39,709 nt of DNA. Source: Deltaproteobacteria bacterium RIFOXYD12_FULL_55_16. GTDB lineage: Bacteria > Desulfobacterota > Desulfobulbia > Desulfobulbales > Desulfurivibrionaceae. How positions within the stretch are numbered: the first letter of the stretch is position 1; each line of letters starts with the position of its first letter. The translations under genes were made by a program, and so were the position numbers. The notes below the pieces were generated by a model, which searched no databases, was not told where the DNA came from, and saw nothing but the letters and a program-made list of their open reading frames with translations. The stretch lies in assembly GCA_001799255.1 (NCBI GenBank), contig MGTC01000024.1, forward strand, positions 1 through 39,709. Reading direction: 5' to 3'. This document shows positions 4,074 through 16,226 of the stretch, one piece after another.

Positions 4074-5285
4074 ATGCTAGCCATCCTGGATGTTGGATAC
4101 TCTATGAAACTGGCAACCTTTCTTTTGTCTTTTCTGTTGTTGTTTGCTCCCTGGCTTACGGCCTCGGCTCTTGCCGATGAACGCAAGGTTATCCCCTCAA
4201 TAACCGTTCAGCAGGAATATAATGACAATTTGTACTTTTCTTCACAGATACGAGATAGCGATTTTATTACTACTGTCTCGCCAGCCCTCGAATTAATCAA
4301 CAACACGGAGCGTTTACAAGCAGGGATAAAAATGCAGCTGAACGGCGTCTATTATCATAAAAACCAGAACCTGCACAGTATTGACCCGGATTATTCCGGT
4401 ACGTTGCGTTATGCCATGTCACCCAGGGCAAATCTATTTACTTCGGCAGGATACCGTCGTGATTTACGGGTTGATCGTGATTTTACGCAAACAGAGTTTC
4501 TGTTTGGCGCTGTTAACCGCACTCGATATATTTATCGATTAGGAGGAGATTACGCCCTGTCTGAAATTATGGACGGACAATTGCAATATTCTTTTAACGG
4601 TGATTATTATGAGGGCTCAAACTATTCCGATTACAAGTCGCAGGATATATCCTTTTTACTCAGTAGAGATTTATCCCGGATTGTTCCCCGAACCACTGGC
4701 AGAATGAATTTAGGAATTACAAAATTTAACACCGCAGGCTCGGAAGTAACCAATTATTCCGGCACGATCGGGACAAAGCGGCGTTTAAATGAGCAGATCA
4801 GCTATTTTGTCGATATCGGTCTCCGTTACACCCAATCAATCGCCAATACCATCTCGGTTGCCAACGGGAATCCCTACGAAGAAGATGCCGACAGCTCTGG
4901 GCTATCTGGTCAGGCTGGCGTATCCTATCTCAATAACGTCAAACTGGTTTTTTCGCACGGCGTCACGGCAACAAGCGGCAGAAGCGGAACCATAGAACGA
5001 ACAGCGGCGCAGGCTAATGTGAATCGGAGATTGACCGGAATCATCCGGGTTGATTGCACCGTCGGATATTTTATGGACAAATCAATGCAGGACAAACTGT
5101 CTGCACTTGTAATTGACGAAAGATACCTATGGTTTCAACCGAAAATATTCTATGATTTCACCAATCAAATTGCGCTTGAAACTTCGTATAATTATGAGAT
5201 GGTGAATAATAGCGAGACAAACACCGATGCGTATCGAAATCTTGTTTTGTTAAGGCTAGTTTTTCAGCACCCACTGTTTAAATAG
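4074..5285 (+). CDS. Outer-membrane beta-barrel protein, polysaccharide-locus associated
   Basis: 403 aa; signal peptide from internal Met at 4104 (MKLATFLLSFLLLFAPWLTASALA); alternating aromatic/polar beta-strand pattern; C-terminal Phe region (VFQHPLFK). Confidence 0.7.
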   Translation: MLAILDVGYSMKLATFLLSFLLLFAPWLTASALADERKVIPSITVQQEYNDNLYFSSQIRDSDFITTVSPALELINNTERLQAGIKMQLNGVYYHKNQNLHSIDPDYSGTLRYAMSPRANLFTSAGYRRDLRVDRDFTQTEFLFGAVNRTRYIYRLGGDYALSEIMDGQLQYSFNGDYYEGSNYSDYKSQDISFLLSRDLSRIVPRTTGRMNLGITKFNTAGSEVTNYSGTIGTKRRLNEQISYFVDIGLRYTQSIANTISVANGNPYEEDADSSGLSGQAGVSYLNNVKLVFSHGVTATSGRSGTIERTAAQANVNRRLTGIIRVDCTVGYFMDKSMQDKLSALVIDERYLWFQPKIFYDFTNQIALETSYNYEMVNNSETNTDAYRNLVLLRLVFQHPLFK

Positions 5286-6127
5286 TGGCAACTGCTCACC
5301 ATGAGGCTAATACGATGCGTCGTGAAACAGCTCTCCCCCTCTCCCTGCTTCTCGCCCTTCTTCCCCTAACCAGCGATGCGGATCTGCGCCCGATCAAGAA
5401 GCTCCGGGCAGGGCTGCCCCCCTATGCCGTGACAGAAAAGATCGTTCGCCACAATGAGCAGGTTGTGGCCAGCAGGCCTACCGACAAGCCCTTGCAAACG
5501 CCAGGCACCCCGCACCTGACCTGGCTGGCGGATTGCGATGCCCGGGTGCAGGCAACCTTGTTCTATCCTGAGCCGATTGATACAATTTATACGGTTCGCA
5601 ATCCCGGCAATCAACTCTCGCTGTCTGCCGGAGCTATTGACTACGGGGTCAACGAACTCCTTACCCCTGTTCTGCTTATCACTGGTAACACCAACAGCGA
5701 CAGCCTCCGGCTGTTCGTCAAAGGGTATAGCCATCTGGGAGCGGATCTGCGGCGTGATCTGGATGGCTTGCGCCTTTCTCTGGCGGAAACAGACCCTGGA
5801 GCTGGGGCAATGACAGAACTCGCCCTGGTGGAAAAAAATGTTGATTTTCAAGTAGCCACGGCCCTGAAACGGTACAGGGAAAGGATGGAAAGCGGCAGAC
5901 TGGTAGTGATCGGGGCGGTAATCGACCTGAACAATCAGTACAGACTCGGGTTTAATCGTTTACGCATTATCAACATCAATGGTGAAACCACACCGGAAAA
6001 ATTGCGGGTCATGCATCATCTCATCCGCTTGGACAAACGACTGCTTGGTCTGGTTGGTCGCCAGCCATGGGAAGAGGAGAACAAGGAGACCAAGGTCACC
6101 AGAAAGGGTAGTACCGGAAAGAAATAA
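5285..6127 (+). CDS. Hypothetical secreted protein
   Basis: Frame-consistent ORF overlapping the previous stop (TAGTG). A signal peptide begins at internal Met 5315 (MRRETALPLSLLLALLPLTSDA). No family recognised. Confidence 0.65.
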   Translation: MATAHHEANTMRRETALPLSLLLALLPLTSDADLRPIKKLRAGLPPYAVTEKIVRHNEQVVASRPTDKPLQTPGTPHLTWLADCDARVQATLFYPEPIDTIYTVRNPGNQLSLSAGAIDYGVNELLTPVLLITGNTNSDSLRLFVKGYSHLGADLRRDLDGLRLSLAETDPGAGAMTELALVEKNVDFQVATALKRYRERMESGRLVVIGAVIDLNNQYRLGFNRLRIININGETTPEKLRVMHHLIRLDKRLLGLVGRQPWEEENKETKVTRKGSTGKK

Positions 6128-6173
6128 CGTCACATTCGTTGTCGACTGCACAGATACCTCGGTAAGCCAACCC

Positions 6174-6211
6174 AAAAGCCCCCCGGACGGGTTTCCGTCC
6201 GGGGGGCTTTT
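6174..6211. terminator. Bidirectional Rho-independent terminator
   Basis: AAAAGCCCCCCGGACGG-GTTT-CCGTCCGGGGGGCTTTT perfect 17-bp stem between convergent genes. Confidence 0.93.
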
Positions 6212-6238
6212 CTAACCAGCAACCTTAATATTCAGCGT

Positions 6239-7168
6239 TTAGCAGCCAAAGGCCTTCTGCAACGGCGGCACGGTCTGTTTCTTGCGGCTCATCATGCCGT
6301 CTATCCACATGGAGTTACCGGCAATCTTGCCGCCGAAAGCCTGCTCAATAACCGCAGGCTCATCAGAAACAACCAGCAGATCGGTGCCCTCTTTCACAAC
6401 ATCGGTAAGCATGAACAGTACGGAATGACGGCCATCCTTCTGGAGATCCTCAAGAGCCTTGTACAGGTCGGCGCGAATTCCGGCAACCTGATCGATGGTG
6501 GCGAGTTCGAGCTGGCCGATGCCGACCTTCTTGCCGTTCATGTCGAAATCCTTGTAATCACGGAAGACGAGATCTTTCATGGGGATACCGTCGATGGAAG
6601 ACTTGGCCTTCAGCATCTCCATGAAGAGCGCATCGGTGTCGGCAACGCCGGCAATTTCTTTCAGGGCAGCAACCGCAGCCTTGTCAGGGGCGGTGCAGGT
6701 GGGGGACTTGAAGTTCACGGTGTCGCTCAGGATGGCGGAAAGCATAACTCCGGCAATATCCTTGGGCAGGGCGACATTGTTGTTCTTGAACATTTCGTAC
6801 AGCACGGTGCAGGTGCAGCCGACCGGCTGGGCATTGAAAACGATCGGGTTGTTGGTGGTAATGTCACCGATCTTGTGGTGATCGACAATAGCAACAACCT
6901 CGGCGTCCTTGATGTTTGCCGGAGCCTGCCCGATATCACTGAAATCGACCAGGGCAACCTTCTTACCCGCAGCGTCCGTCATGGTCTGGGGCGCGGCCAG
7001 ACCGAAGTTTTTGAGAACCGTGACGCTCTCTGGGTTCAGCTTGGCTGCCTCAATCTGCATGCAGGCAACGGCGTCGGTACCGGTAGCCTTCAGATAATGG
7101 GCGTAGGCAATGGCGGCGGCAACGGAATCGGTATCGGGATTTGAATGGCCAACAACACAAACAGACAT
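6239..7168 (-). CDS. ppaC: Manganese-dependent inorganic pyrophosphatase (family II)
   Basis: 309 aa; VVGHSNPDTDSVAAAIAYA, VAIVDHHKIGD, CTCTVLYEMF, SDTVNFKSPTCT, C-terminal SRKKQ. Confidence 0.95.
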   Translation of the reverse strand: MSVCVVGHSNPDTDSVAAAIAYAHYLKATGTDAVACMQIEAAKLNPESVTVLKNFGLAAPQTMTDAAGKKVALVDFSDIGQAPANIKDAEVVAIVDHHKIGDITTNNPIVFNAQPVGCTCTVLYEMFKNNNVALPKDIAGVMLSAILSDTVNFKSPTCTAPDKAAVAALKEIAGVADTDALFMEMLKAKSSIDGIPMKDLVFRDYKDFDMNGKKVGIGQLELATIDQVAGIRADLYKALEDLQKDGRHSVLFMLTDVVKEGTDLLVVSDEPAVIEQAFGGKIAGNSMWIDGMMSRKKQTVPPLQKAFGC

Positions 7169-7325
7169 GGTGATCCTCCTTGAATTTTTTTATTGCAGCA
7201 AAAATATCCTGTTACAGGACTATGACCTTTCTAAAATCAGAATGCTCAAAACTTAAAACGGGCAAAGAATAGTGTTGTTAAGATAGAGAGTCAAGAAGAA
7301 AGACGAGAAAATGCCTGGGATGGAA

Positions 7326-7841
7326 TTATTTATGTCCTGGTTTCTCGTCTTCGCGCCGCTGTCTAAAAGGCAGATGCGGGGTATGCACCCCCTCCCGCAG
7401 CATGAAGAAGCTGGTTTCAAGAAGCTCGACCCCGGTCAGCACCCCGACCGTAAGCACAGCCAGAACCACGCCCCCATGCTCATAACCCAGCCCGATGGCC
7501 GAGCCGATGGCAGCCAGCATCCAGATTACCGCAGCCGAAGTAACCCCCTGCACCAAGCCTTCCTTGGCCATAATTACCCCCGCGCCAAGAAAACCGATGC
7601 CAGTGACAACCTGACCCACCACCCGGCTGGGGTCTGCGCCCGTGCCTTCAGTGATCAGAGCGCCCAGCGCGACAAAGACCTCGGTGCCAAGACAGATGAG
7701 AATGCTGGTGCGGATGCCCGCCGGTTTGCCGCGCAGTTGGCGTTCCAGGCCGATGATGCCGCCACAGATAAGGGCAACGGCAATGCGCTGCCAGAAGATC
7801 GGCGTGTAGGGATCGAACAGTGGCATGGTCAGAGGTTCCAT
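7326..7841 (-). CDS. MgtC family membrane protein
   Basis: 171 aa; ALICGGIIGLERQLRGKPAGIRTSILICLGT and RVVGQVVTGIGFLGAGVIM, typical of MgtC/SapB. Confidence 0.92.
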   Translation of the reverse strand: MEPLTMPLFDPYTPIFWQRIAVALICGGIIGLERQLRGKPAGIRTSILICLGTEVFVALGALITEGTGADPSRVVGQVVTGIGFLGAGVIMAKEGLVQGVTSAAVIWMLAAIGSAIGLGYEHGGVVLAVLTVGVLTGVELLETSFFMLREGVHTPHLPFRQRREDEKPGHK

Positions 7842-8656
7842 TACGGTTGAACCTTAAGGTCAACTATGTGGTGACACCACCTTTTTTGCCGATTAAAAAT
7901 AAGCCCCAGGATCTTTTCCCTTGGAATCAACTTCAGGATATTGTTGATCTCCTTGGCAGAGTTTCGACCATATTGTGTTACTACCAGGATTCCGTCTACA
8001 AGCGGGGCAAAGGTAATCGCATCCGCCCCCTCCTTAAGGCTGGGAAGATCAAAGATTATATATCGGTTTGCGTATCTCTCCTTCATTTCGGCGACAAGGC
8101 TCTTCATCTGCGGCGAGCCCAATAATTCAGTGGTATCCTGAAATGTCTGCCCACCAGAGATAAGGGTCATCTTCTCTACCCCTGGCCAACTGATAATTTC
8201 ATTCAAGGAGCAATCGTTAAGAAGAAAATCCCCCAATCCCCTGTCTGATTTATACCCGAAACGCTTATGGATATCCTGTTTTTTTAAATCGCAGTCCACG
8301 AGCAGAACCGTCTGGTTAAATTCTCTGGCAAGGGTAATTGCCAGATTGATGGCGGTGAGAGTCTTACCCTCACCCGGTTGTACGCTTGTCACCATCAAGG
8401 TGTTCCAGCCCCTCTCTTTGGTTCTTTGTATAATCTGCGCCCGGAGAACTTTATAATTATCTATTTCGGTAGCGCCCGGAGTAATGCAAACGCACTTGTT
8501 TTTCATCAGTGCGTCCTGGTTGCAGAGAACTTGAGAAGATTTTGCATAGGCTGGCGACTGCCAGGACTTTTCCTCTCCGGAAGGACTTGATTCTTCGCCC
8601 CATATATCTTCCTGATGCTTTCTTCGCTCCCCGTCAAAGGCTTTCCGTAAACTCAT
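7841..8656 (-). CDS. CpsD/CapB-family exopolysaccharide ATPase (BY-kinase-like)
   Basis: Walker A VTSVQPGEGKTLTAINLAITLA, Walker A' VLLVDCDLKKQDIH. The start at 8656 (MSLRKAF) has RBS gaaggag; the ORF track extends upstream to 8725. Confidence 0.87.
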   Translation of the reverse strand: MSLRKAFDGERRKHQEDIWGEESSPSGEEKSWQSPAYAKSSQVLCNQDALMKNKCVCITPGATEIDNYKVLRAQIIQRTKERGWNTLMVTSVQPGEGKTLTAINLAITLAREFNQTVLLVDCDLKKQDIHKRFGYKSDRGLGDFLLNDCSLNEIISWPGVEKMTLISGGQTFQDTTELLGSPQMKSLVAEMKERYANRYIIFDLPSLKEGADAITFAPLVDGILVVTQYGRNSAKEINNILKLIPREKILGLIFNRQKRWCHHIVDLKVQP

Positions 8657-8714
8657 CGCCACAGCTCCTTCTCCATCAAAATACCTCAAGAATAGGTATC
8701 CAGCCTCTTCCGCT

Positions 8715-10220
8715 TCAGTTGACAAATCTTAACGCCAAAAGAGCAATAAAAGCCAGGCCAAGATTCAGCAATAGAAGAATAAATTGCAATCTATTCATTT
8801 TTTGAGCCTGAAGTCTTTCCTGCTCATGAAGAATTTCGGGGATAACCACTAAAACAGGAAAAGAGGTAGCTTTAGCAAGATCCTCGGCATTCAGGATTGA
8901 TTGATCATTGAATTCCACAAGAGCGGCAAGCCCTACCCCTGCGCCAACGCCCAGGACAATGCTGACAAGAACGATGAGCAACCGATTGGGTTTATATGGT
9001 TTTTTGGGCAACTGAGCAGGCTCGACAACGGTAAGTCGCCCGCCTTTCTGATCTTTTTCAAGTCCCTGGGCGACTTGAGCCTCCATGTATTTTTGCATCA
9101 ACTCATTGTAATTACGCAACTGATTATCACGATCGTTGAGCAAGGATTTATAGGTCTTTTCAACCCATGGCGTTGCGGCAATCGAGACACGATAATGGGA
9201 AGATCTCTGCTCGTTTGCCGCGATTTGTTTGTTCAGAGAGGCAATCTCCGCCTTTATACTGGCCAGCTGTGCCGCCAGGATTATATAAGCTGAATTATCA
9301 GAGATTTCTTCCTTGCTCGCCTCTTTTTCCGCGATAATCTTTTCAATCTCGGCTTTAACCAAAATAACATCTGGATATTGATCAGAAAAGCGCGCTTTCA
9401 GATTGGACAGCTGAATCCGCAACTCCTCCAGTCGTTTTTTCTGCATTTCCTGTTTGGGAATACTTGCCAGTTGTGACTCAAGGTAGCCCTCCCGTTCCCG
9501 AGATGTTCTCATCTGCTCGAAAAGCCTGTCGCTATTCGTTTCTGTATTTTGCAGACTCTGCATATTGACCTGCAGGAGTTCGGGCAGCTCATTGAGATGT
9601 TGCTCCTTATAATCTGCGATTTTCGCATCAGATTCAGCCAGAACTTCTGTTATCCGATTAACTTCCTCCAAAAGAAAACTTGAGGCGCCAGACACCGTTT
9701 TTTCACGGTCTTTCAAATATTCTTCAAGGAATAATGAGGTAAGGACTGAGGCGATCTTTTGGGTTTGCTCCGGCTTTTTCCCTTGGTAGGAAAGAGTGAA
9801 GGCGATGGTTGCCGGAGAAGCCTGGCCGGTTTTAGGATCAACAACATCGGCCTTAATAAAATTAAGAACGATATCACCTTTCATCTTCGCGGCTATTTCA
9901 TCAGGACTTATCTTATTCTGAAGCTCGGGATAGAGATGAAACTCCTTGATTATCGCCAGAATACGCGAGGTGCTGATGAGGCGCTGGTAAATTATCCCCA
10001 GACGTTGCTGGGCATATCTTGTCACCGTTGTCCGCACAAGATTAGTTGGTATTTCTTGCTCTTCAATAAGGATCGTGGAGGTGGAGCGATAAATGGATGG
10101 TAGGAGAAAAACCGTGGCCACAGTTGCCCAGAAAATGGCGCAACTGGGGAGAATCAAATACCATCTCCGCCTTAACAGCACCGCTTTCAAGTCACTCAAG
10201 CTCTTAATCTGGGCAGCCAT
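8715..10220 (-). CDS. Wzz/GumC-type polysaccharide chain-length determinant
   Basis: 501 aa; N-terminal TM (WYLILPSCAIFWATVATVFLLPSIYRSTSTILIEEQ), long coiled coil, proline-rich motif before C-terminal TM (PAQLPKKPYKPNRLLIVLVSIVLGVGAG). Confidence 0.9.
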   Translation of the reverse strand: MAAQIKSLSDLKAVLLRRRWYLILPSCAIFWATVATVFLLPSIYRSTSTILIEEQEIPTNLVRTTVTRYAQQRLGIIYQRLISTSRILAIIKEFHLYPELQNKISPDEIAAKMKGDIVLNFIKADVVDPKTGQASPATIAFTLSYQGKKPEQTQKIASVLTSLFLEEYLKDREKTVSGASSFLLEEVNRITEVLAESDAKIADYKEQHLNELPELLQVNMQSLQNTETNSDRLFEQMRTSREREGYLESQLASIPKQEMQKKRLEELRIQLSNLKARFSDQYPDVILVKAEIEKIIAEKEASKEEISDNSAYIILAAQLASIKAEIASLNKQIAANEQRSSHYRVSIAATPWVEKTYKSLLNDRDNQLRNYNELMQKYMEAQVAQGLEKDQKGGRLTVVEPAQLPKKPYKPNRLLIVLVSIVLGVGAGVGLAALVEFNDQSILNAEDLAKATSFPVLVVIPEILHEQERLQAQKMNRLQFILLLLNLGLAFIALLALRFVN

Positions 10221-13202: not shown

Positions 13203-14840
13203 TCATGAGCCGCCGCAACCAAGGCGGGCAAAGGCCTCCGGGAAAATAAAATTATTATCGTGGTCGCCGGTGTGGCAGCGCAGACAGGTTTCCCTGGTTG
13301 GCTGGCTCGGTTTGCCGCTTTGTGGCCGGAGAGCATGCTGCCTGCTCGGGCCATGGCAGGTTTCGCAGCCAACCTGACGCAGATCATTAGCCAGGTTTAG
13401 TACCACTTCTCCAGACTGGCCAAAAGCACCCGTCACATGACAGGGAAGGCATTGTGCATTGAACTGTTGCCCTTTGCCCTCCAGGGTGCCGTAAGCTAAG
13501 GCATGTCTGGTGGTGAGCCATTTCTTGAACTGCTGGGTATGGCAGCTCTGGCAGGCGGCGCTTCCGGTATAATTATCCGGAAAAATCGCTTTATTCTGGG
13601 CCAGAGAATTTACGGCCCTGTCCTTGGCCGCGAGCTTGCCTAGCCTGTTCACCTCGCTGGTGGTCGCCTGGACAATGGCCAGTACCGCCGGGTTGTCGGG
13701 CAGTTCTTTCCGCATGACCTCAAAACGATTGCTGAAGGAAGACAGTCTGGCCTGGCCAAGGTTTTTGGCGTTTTGTGCCGCCGTAAGACTGACAAGCTCC
13801 TGCTCCAGCCTTTCACGTTGGCCGAGCATGGCCTCATAAGCCGCGAGCACCTCAAGCTGATCCTTGAAGACCAGCCTTGGCTCCCCCTGTTTACGGTAGC
13901 GGCCTATCTGCCAATCCAGGCGATCCAACTCATTTTTTTTCTCCAGCAGCAGATTCTCCGGGCCTGGATCTTCCCATTTTTTTGCCTGCGTATTCCAACG
14001 CACATCCAGAATACCAACAAATTTTCCCTGCTGCTCAACCTGGGTAATAAGAGTGTTGTTGATCTGTTTCGGCGGCAGATTGCCTGGTATGTTCCCGCCT
14101 TGCAGGATGAGGTGTATTTCCGGATATTTTTCGGCAATTCTCTTGTTTATTGCCGCAGGAAAGCTGGAAAGCAGGATCAGCAGATCAGCCCGGCCTTTCA
14201 ACAGGGCGATTTCCCTGGGAAGAACCTCTTCCCAGGGAAGAATGACGGCGTTGTCTTTTTCCGTCAAAAGAGCATCCGGGCCATGGTTGCTGGTTAGGCC
14301 GACAACGGCGATGTTCATTCCGGCCATGTTCAGCAGGGTGTGGGGCTTAAAATATGGTTTGCCCTGGGTGCGGCTGACAAGGTTGGCACTTAGCCAGGGG
14401 AAAGCAGATTTCTGCTGGAGACTGAGAAGAAAGGGCAGCCCTGCGGCAAGATCCTGCCTGGCAACACCGACTGCGGCAAAAGACATTTTGTTGTATGCCG
14501 AAACAATGCCCTGCGCTGTGGCGGTAAGCTGCAAAACCTGCTCCGGCGGAATCTTTTCCTCCTTGAACAGCAGGGCGCCGCTGTCCAAAGCCAGCACCCC
14601 GGTTTTTTTCTCCCGCAAGTCAAGCAGCTGTTGGGCTTTTTTGGGCAGACCGCCCAACTGATTGCTTTGTCATCCGCAGGGTTCGGTTTCGCCCCGGACA
14701 TCGTTGGCGAAAAAAAGCGTTAGCTCACGTAGGCCCTTTGCCTGATTGATTGCGCCCGCTTTTTTTTCTGCGGCTCCGCTGATACCAGCCAGGGTGAGCA
14801 AGGCCAGGAGAGTGGAAAATAATAAAAATGTTTTCTTCAT
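13203..14840 (-). CDS. UshA-like (degenerate metallophosphatase) tetraheme c-type cytochrome; predicted selenoprotein with Sec at TGA 14672-14670
   Basis: The ORF track gives only 13203-14657 with a TTG start inside a motif. Reading upstream in the same frame across one TGA gives MKKTFLLFSTLLALLTLAGISGAAEKKAGAINQAKGLRELTLFFANDVRGETEPCG-[TGA]-QSNQLGGLPKKAQQLLDLREKK... Four CxxCH motifs follow (CQSCH, CLPCH, CETCH, CLRCH). Confidence 0.85.
14641..14657 (-). promoter_or_regulatory. Putative bacterial SECIS hairpin
   Basis: Minus strand: TTGGGC-GGTCT-GCCCAA, 6-bp perfect stem with GGTCT apical loop; 15 nt between the TGA and the stem, 18 nt between the TGA and the loop. Confidence 0.75.
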
Positions 14841-14861: not shown

Positions 14862-16226
14862 TTACTTTTTTCGATCTCGCAGCAACTGCCGCCATTTGCC
14901 CAGCCGATCCCGGATGACTGCTTCATGGCCCCGGTTGGCGGGCTGGTAATAGATTTTCCCCTCAAGCTCGTCCGGCAGATGATGCTGATCCACCAGGGCA
15001 TGGGGGTCGTCATGCGCATACTGGTAGCCTTGCCCGTAGCCAAGATCCTTCATCAACGCGGTCGGCGCATTACGCAGATGAAGCGGCACCGGCAGAGTGC
15101 CTGTGCGTCTGATGTCGTGCCGCACCGAGTTATAAGCGGCATAGACGGCATTGCTCTTGGGGGCGGTGGCAAGATAGGTAACGGCCTGGGCCAGGGCCAG
15201 TTCTCCCTCTGGTGTTCCCAAGGTTTGATAGGAATTTCTGGCATTCAGGGCAACCGTGAGAGCCTGTGGGTCCGCGTTGCCGATGTCTTCCGAGGCGAAG
15301 CGGATCAGGCGGCGGGCCAGATACAAGGGTTCCTCCCCGGCGGCAAGCATTCGGCACAGCCAGTACAGGGCCCCGTCCGGATCGCTGTCCCGCAGGCTTT
15401 TGTGCAGGGCCGAGATCAGATTGTAATGCTCCTCGCCATCTTTATCATAGCGCAGACTTCTGCGCTGGATGGCTTCTTCCACTGTGGCCAGGGTTATCTG
15501 CCGCGAGCCTTCGGCATCCGGTTCGGCAAGATTAGCGGCAATTTCCAGGCTGTTCAGCAGGCTGCGGGCATCGCCGTCCGCAATCCTGGCCAGATGGGCA
15601 GCCGCCTCCGGCGCAAGGGCAATCTGCCAGGAGCCCAGCCCCTGTTCCTTGTCCGTGAGGGCCCGCTGGATAATGGCCTGCAACTCCTCCTGGCCCAAGG
15701 GCTCAAGCACCAGCACCCTGCATCGGGAGAGAAGTGGAGCGATAACATGGAAAGAGGGATTTTCGGTGGTTGCGCCAATAAGGGTCAAGAGACCGCTTTC
15801 CACATGGGGGAGGAAAGCGTCCTGTTGGCTTTTGTTAAAACGATGGATTTCATCCACGAAAACAATGGTGGCAATGTTGCGCTCATCCTTGGCGGTCTGG
15901 GCCTGAGCCACAATTTCCCGGATCTCCTTGACCCCGGACAGCACGGCGGAAAAGAAGGCGAAATCAGCGCCGGTCATCCGGGACAAAATCCGAGCCAGGG
16001 TGGTTTTGCCGGTGCCGGGCGGGCCCCAGAGCAGCAGGGAGGGCAGATATTTCTGGCCGATAAGCCGCCGGAGAATCTTGTCCTCGCCCAACAGCTGCCT
16101 TTGGCCGACAAAATCATCTATCGTTTGCGGACGCAGGCGTTCAGCCAGGGGGGCGGTATGATGGGCGGGTTGTCGGGCCATGACTCTTTGCACCCAGAAG
16201 GTCTCTGTTTCGTTTGTGAGGCTCAA
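14862..16226 (-). CDS. rarA: Replication-associated recombination protein A (RarA/MgsA AAA+ ATPase)
   Basis: APLAERLRPQTIDDFVGQRQLLGEDKILRRLI, LWGPPGTGKTTLARILS, FVDEIHRFNKSQQDAFLPHVESGLLTLIGATTENPSF. The true start may be internal Met MARQPAHHTAP. Confidence 0.96.
   Translation of the reverse strand: MSLTNETETFWVQRVMARQPAHHTAPLAERLRPQTIDDFVGQRQLLGEDKILRRLIGQKYLPSLLLWGPPGTGKTTLARILSRMTGADFAFFSAVLSGVKEIREIVAQAQTAKDERNIATIVFVDEIHRFNKSQQDAFLPHVESGLLTLIGATTENPSFHVIAPLLSRCRVLVLEPLGQEELQAIIQRALTDKEQGLGSWQIALAPEAAAHLARIADGDARSLLNSLEIAANLAEPDAEGSRQITLATVEEAIQRRSLRYDKDGEEHYNLISALHKSLRDSDPDGALYWLCRMLAAGEEPLYLARRLIRFASEDIGNADPQALTVALNARNSYQTLGTPEGELALAQAVTYLATAPKSNAVYAAYNSVRHDIRRTGTLPVPLHLRNAPTALMKDLGYGQGYQYAHDDPHALVDQHHLPDELEGKIYYQPANRGHEAVIRDRLGKWRQLLRDRKK

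Follow-up and report, generated by a model that had tools for sequence, protein, structure and literature searches.

The window is the whole stretch of DNA that was analysed, 39,709 nucleotides from Deltaproteobacteria bacterium RIFOXYD12_FULL_55_16. Its minus strand carries a long gene interrupted by one in-frame TGA and, just upstream, a gene for an AAA+ ATPase. The features of the locus are as follows.

13203..14840, minus strand: full gene of the predicted selenoprotein, UshA-like tetrahaem type (NF041198), 545 aa plus a TGA stop; from the frame and a profile match
14769..14840, minus strand: signal-peptide-like N-terminus, residues 1-24; judged by eye, with comparable hydrophobic N-termini in relatives
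13950..14729, minus strand: 5'-nucleotidase/metallophosphoesterase-fold domain, residues about 38-297, with most metal ligands gone; from profile and structure comparison
14670..14672, minus strand: in-frame TGA, codon 57, predicted selenocysteine (U57) in a PCG-U motif; from TGA/Cys exchange at the same codon in relatives
14641..14657, minus strand: candidate bSECIS hairpin TTGGGC-GGTCT-GCCCAA with apical loop GGUCU, nucleotides 13-29 after the TGA; z = -2.7, p = 0.008 against synonymous shuffles
13245..13556, minus strand: tetrahaem cytochrome c554-like domain, residues about 429-532; Pfam PF13435 at 53.6 bits, PDB 6i5b and 1bvb
14862..16226, minus strand: rarA/mgsA-like AAA+ ATPase gene; from profile matches

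Translated with TGA as U, the gene forms one frame of 545 codons from the ATG at 14840 to the TGA at 13203, with a single internal TGA at 14672-14670. An earlier sequence-only reading had described this frame, its one TGA and a product of about 545 aa with a CGU motif, and the translation agrees: the motif is PCG-U at codon 57, in the context TEPCG-U-QSNQLGGLPKKA. The same reading held that the gene had been truncated by the ORF caller. The ORF list indeed gives 13203..14657 on the minus strand, 484 aa with a TTG start, a call that begins at TTG 14657 because of the in-frame TGA. The sequence 5' of the ATG is AAAGGAAAA, and the read-through protein opens with the signal-peptide-like sequence MKKTFLLFSTLLALLTLAGISGAA. 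It contains four CXXCH motifs, at residues 430, 464, 492 and 519, in a C-terminal multihaem region where PF13435 scores above its cut-off, as anticipated by the description of a secreted multihaem protein with a signal peptide. Annotation without UGA read-through misses both the signal peptide and the active-site motif.

The protein belongs to a known family. It matches the NCBIfam profile NF041198, “UshA-like (seleno)protein” (UshA_like_PCGU), with 601.2 bits and an E-value of 1.5e-180, over positions 13-518 of 519 and across the TGA; the curated cut-off is 275 bits, so the assignment to an UshA-like family made from the sequence was sound. The profile takes in the cytochrome region. Its characteristic Sec or Cys in a PCG-U/C motif is present in the window protein, which shares with the family a full-length match, the PCGU motif, the UGA and the cytochrome region, and differs from it in nothing substantive. 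A profile search of the whole genome gave this one match above the cut-off, with “1 TGA” reported inside it.

The Global Ocean Sampling survey of 2008 (PMC2398784) catalogued the UshA-like CxU (COG0737) selenoprotein family, counting 76 sequences with Sec and 92 with Cys, and a 2026 review lists it under NF041198 (PMC13188914). Since both NCBIfam and the literature already include the family, the finding is correct but not new: the gene is a correctly read, ordinary member. A literature search for the function of the family returned catalogues only and found no biochemical data on UshA-like (seleno)proteins. A second family of the same superfamily, UshA-like selenoprotein family 2 (CxxU, NF049981), is matched weakly (31.2 bits against a cut-off of 140), and no member of it was found in the genome.

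Relatives were taken from a genome-wide search across the class; a separate search of a sequence collection gave four loci. The family is very common in the class, with NF041198 matches above the strict cut-off in 190 of 258 genomes, and is mostly selenium-dependent. Nearly all of the strong matches listed from the 258 genomes contain one TGA, while twelve contain no stop. The sequence-only reading had placed the TGA where relatives carry Cys, and had proposed a search for homologues with Cys or Sec aligned there. Such homologues were found in 50 distinct relatives from many genera: at exactly this codon 38 have TGA and 12 have TGC or TGT, and the 38 are mostly without any other stop. In five genomes (G239, G242, G243, G254 and G257) TGA and Cys paralogues occur side by side (L060-L063, L065, L066 and L071-L074). 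One locus (L075, G171:C40) has the usual TGA plus a TAG ahead of the haem domain, and may be a broken gene or encode split domains.

A second line of evidence is the hairpin that follows the TGA. As RNA it reads UUGGGC-GGUCU-GCCCAA, and its loop opens with GG 18 nt past the UGA. This falls inside the 16-37 nt range of bacterial SECIS elements, and the E. coli fdhF element contains GGUCU as well. Because the LGGL residues encoded here are conserved at the protein level too, synonymous sites provide the fair test of the hairpin. All five inner pairs can form in 37 of 38 Sec genes, compared with 2 of 12 Cys genes. The Sec genes use GGC (38/38), GGT (34/38) and CTG (37/38) in the hairpin, and the Cys genes use a mixture of codons for the same residues. 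Against synonymous shuffles, the folding energy of the Sec genes has a mean z of -2.2, with p <= 0.05 in 24 of 38; for the Cys genes the mean z is +0.3, and none of the 12 reaches that level. In one Sec gene (L078) the hairpin pairs again in a shifted register, and in another (L087) the closing pair is altered on both sides, from C-G to A-U. A hairpin held at synonymous positions in TGA but not in Cys genes is what would be expected of a bacterial SECIS element, which it appears to be. An Rfam scan of the SECIS region and of the whole window matched no bacterial SECIS model and nothing else relevant.

Insertion of Sec also depends on dedicated machinery, and selA, selB, selC and selD had been named as genes to look for elsewhere in the genome. 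All four are present in the assembly, which spans 2.46 Mb over 90 contigs and is 85% complete. Profile searches found selB (354 bits), selA (612 bits) and selD (388 bits); tRNA-Sec (selC) scores 71 bits, and ARAGORN also calls a tRNA-SeC. The selD gene (L023, G000:C57:13985-14908) has an in-frame TGA of its own and is therefore probably a selenoprotein gene itself.

The distribution of selB was followed among the relatives. Among 21 sampled genomes that carry the Sec form, 18 have it above cut-off. The three without a full selB are G014, G077 and G006, the last with a partial match at a contig end; in all three, incomplete assembly is a plausible cause. In one genus with only the Cys form (g26, G072-G076), selB is above cut-off in none of five genomes, so that this genus appears to have lost the use of Sec. 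The correlation has an exception in G255, which has selB although only a Cys copy is listed.

The computations thus establish the frame, the family membership, the Sec/Cys exchange, the conservation of the SECIS hairpin and the presence of the Sec machinery, together with the haem motifs and the metal-ligand loss described below. The exchange, the hairpin, the machinery and the absence of selB from a Cys-only genus all argue for a selenoprotein rather than a truncated gene. On this comparative evidence, 13203..14840 is almost certainly a UshA-like selenoprotein gene whose UGA is read as Sec. SelB and Sec-tRNA(Sec) would recognise the hairpin directly 3' of the UGA, and selenocysteine would be inserted at position 57.

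The TGA could instead be a nonsense mutation or a miscall in a Cys gene, with the product either truncated or made from TTG 14657. ORF callers do begin at that TTG, and Cys-encoding versions exist. Nevertheless 38 distinct genes share the TGA at this codon, and most of them contain no further stop; such recurrence makes a sequencing error very unlikely; the downstream hairpin is kept at synonymous sites in TGA genes only; the genome has the full Sec machinery; and a TTG start loses the signal peptide, yet the four haem motifs of the remainder need export. A pseudogene or sequencing error is refuted by these comparative data, and its chance is put as very slight. Least probable of all is a reassignment of UGA in this organism, for instance to Trp or Gly, as happens in other bacterial groups: it is refuted by normal stop usage, since UGA ends 4 of the 19 identified genes of the window, this one included, and genome-wide recoding is therefore not the explanation, while the relatives without TGA align Cys, neither Trp nor Gly, and tRNA-Sec and SelB are present.

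Read as a selenoprotein, the finished product would comprise a signal peptide, a 5'-nucleotidase-type fold, a helical linker and a cytochrome c554-like domain binding four c-type haems. The Sec would sit in the PCGU loop, right after the former first metal-binding loop. The haem domain resembles cytochrome c554 (PF13435, PDB 1bvb), here fused to a nucleotidase-fold domain. Four haem motifs occur in every complete tetrahaem member read, and two histidines outside the CXXCH motifs, His446 and His502, are invariant in 24 sequences.

The N-terminal domain shares its fold and sequence ancestry with UshA and other 5'-nucleotidases (PDB 3ivd and 1ush). Its profile aligns to 5'-nucleotidases (3ivd, 2e-17) and weakly to SoxB. 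A structure predicted from five sequences matches a nucleotidase-like fold, but with its low confidence (mean pLDDT 52) it is usable for the overall fold only and cannot place the Sec relative to the haems. The di-metal ligands of UshA, which we take to be Asp41, His43, Asp84, Asn116, His217, His252 and Gln254, are mostly replaced. In the alignment to 3ivd, DLH has become DVR, DAGD has become DSGA, GNHE has become ARQD, and the His segments have become LLSS and LQGGN. The first Asp (D47) is the sole survivor among these presumed ligands and is itself variable in the family; R49 stands at the His position of DxH. In place of an active UshA di-metal set, the protein has gained the PCGU motif and the tetrahaem domain. 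The PCG-U/C motif, directly after the first metal loop, is invariant in 24 tetrahaem-type sequences.

Loss of the di-metal ligands beside an invariant PCG-U/C suggests that the tetrahaem form puts an old phosphoesterase fold to redox use. The best inference is therefore that Sec57 carries out redox chemistry while the haems carry the electrons, and a redox role appears probable on these alignments. Catalysis of a periplasmic redox reaction would fall to the Sec, which would trade electrons with the haems. This yields a specific and testable hypothesis of redox rather than phosphatase activity.

Another role for Sec57 would be to bind a metal or a haem iron instead of acting as a redox nucleophile. 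Certain haem-less relatives are in its favour, in that the partner Cys is altered or lost (GSGU in L085, CGGU in L087) and the UGA is kept; a C-x-U selenenylsulfide is therefore not obligatory across the family. The interchange of Sec and Cys, and the invariant vicinal Cys of the tetrahaem form, are consistent with thiol/selenol redox chemistry, and the analysis gave no sign of a metal bound near the Sec. Metal or haem binding is accordingly considered unlikely. Still harder to sustain is a Sec-containing but active 5'-nucleotidase or UDP-sugar hydrolase like UshA. The sequence and the fold are similar to those of such enzymes, but the presumed metal ligands are gone except for the variable D47. 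Because the nucleotidase site has lost most of its metal ligands, “UshA-like” denotes ancestry and not activity; metal-dependent phosphatase activity would be unlikely, and a working UshA-type enzyme very improbable.

The preferred redox reading leaves room for guesses about the substrate. The window protein has distant sequence similarity to the SoxB thiosulfohydrolase (TIGR04486, 2.5e-9), and SoxB structures (PDB 2wdc/4uwq) match the UshA-like family profile at 1.2e-6. It is not itself a SoxB, scoring 35.9 bits where the TIGR04486 cut-off is 550. Relatives lie in the Desulfobulbaceae-type group (the nearest named relative is L027), and Desulfobulbaceae are sulfur-cycling bacteria. A sulfur compound is proposed from this kinship and this setting, as a guess only and a doubtful one.

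An example of how far the family can vary is provided by haem-less Sec forms. These are about 330-390 aa long and occur in several genera (L082, L083, L085-L088). Their motifs include PCGU, GCGU, ECGU and PCGGU, and in L085 the motif is GSGU, where Ser replaces the motif Cys and the Sec thus lacks a Cys partner. All six retain the SECIS hairpin. Their existence indicates that haems are not essential to Sec function everywhere. Since the UGA and the hairpin are retained while haems and partner Cys vary, Sec is the steadier feature, and the other two are not obligatory. Three of these forms, L085 (271 bits), L087 (255) and L088 (267), fall below the NF041198 cut-off of 275 and may have been overlooked in annotation.

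A broader picture would be that a phosphoesterase fold, having lost its di-metal site, became a selenol redox enzyme of the periplasm, linked to four haems or free-standing depending on the lineage, with a sulfur compound as the leading guess for its substrate. This is put forward tentatively, its chances falling a little short of even. If true, one fold supports two kinds of chemistry that are unrelated, and the haem-less Sec members below the NCBIfam cut-off are under-annotated.

The surroundings of the gene are also partly conserved. A rarA gene lies directly 5' of the Sec form in 28 of 28 cases among L031-L060, loci from across the order, but no rarA turned up next to the Cys forms L028-L030, L037 and L040. 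This linkage does not imply a functional link. Elsewhere in the window, positions 4074-10220 hold an exopolysaccharide/exosortase-type cluster with a PEP-CTERM-associated outer membrane protein, an XrtA-type tyrosine kinase and a chain-length determinant.
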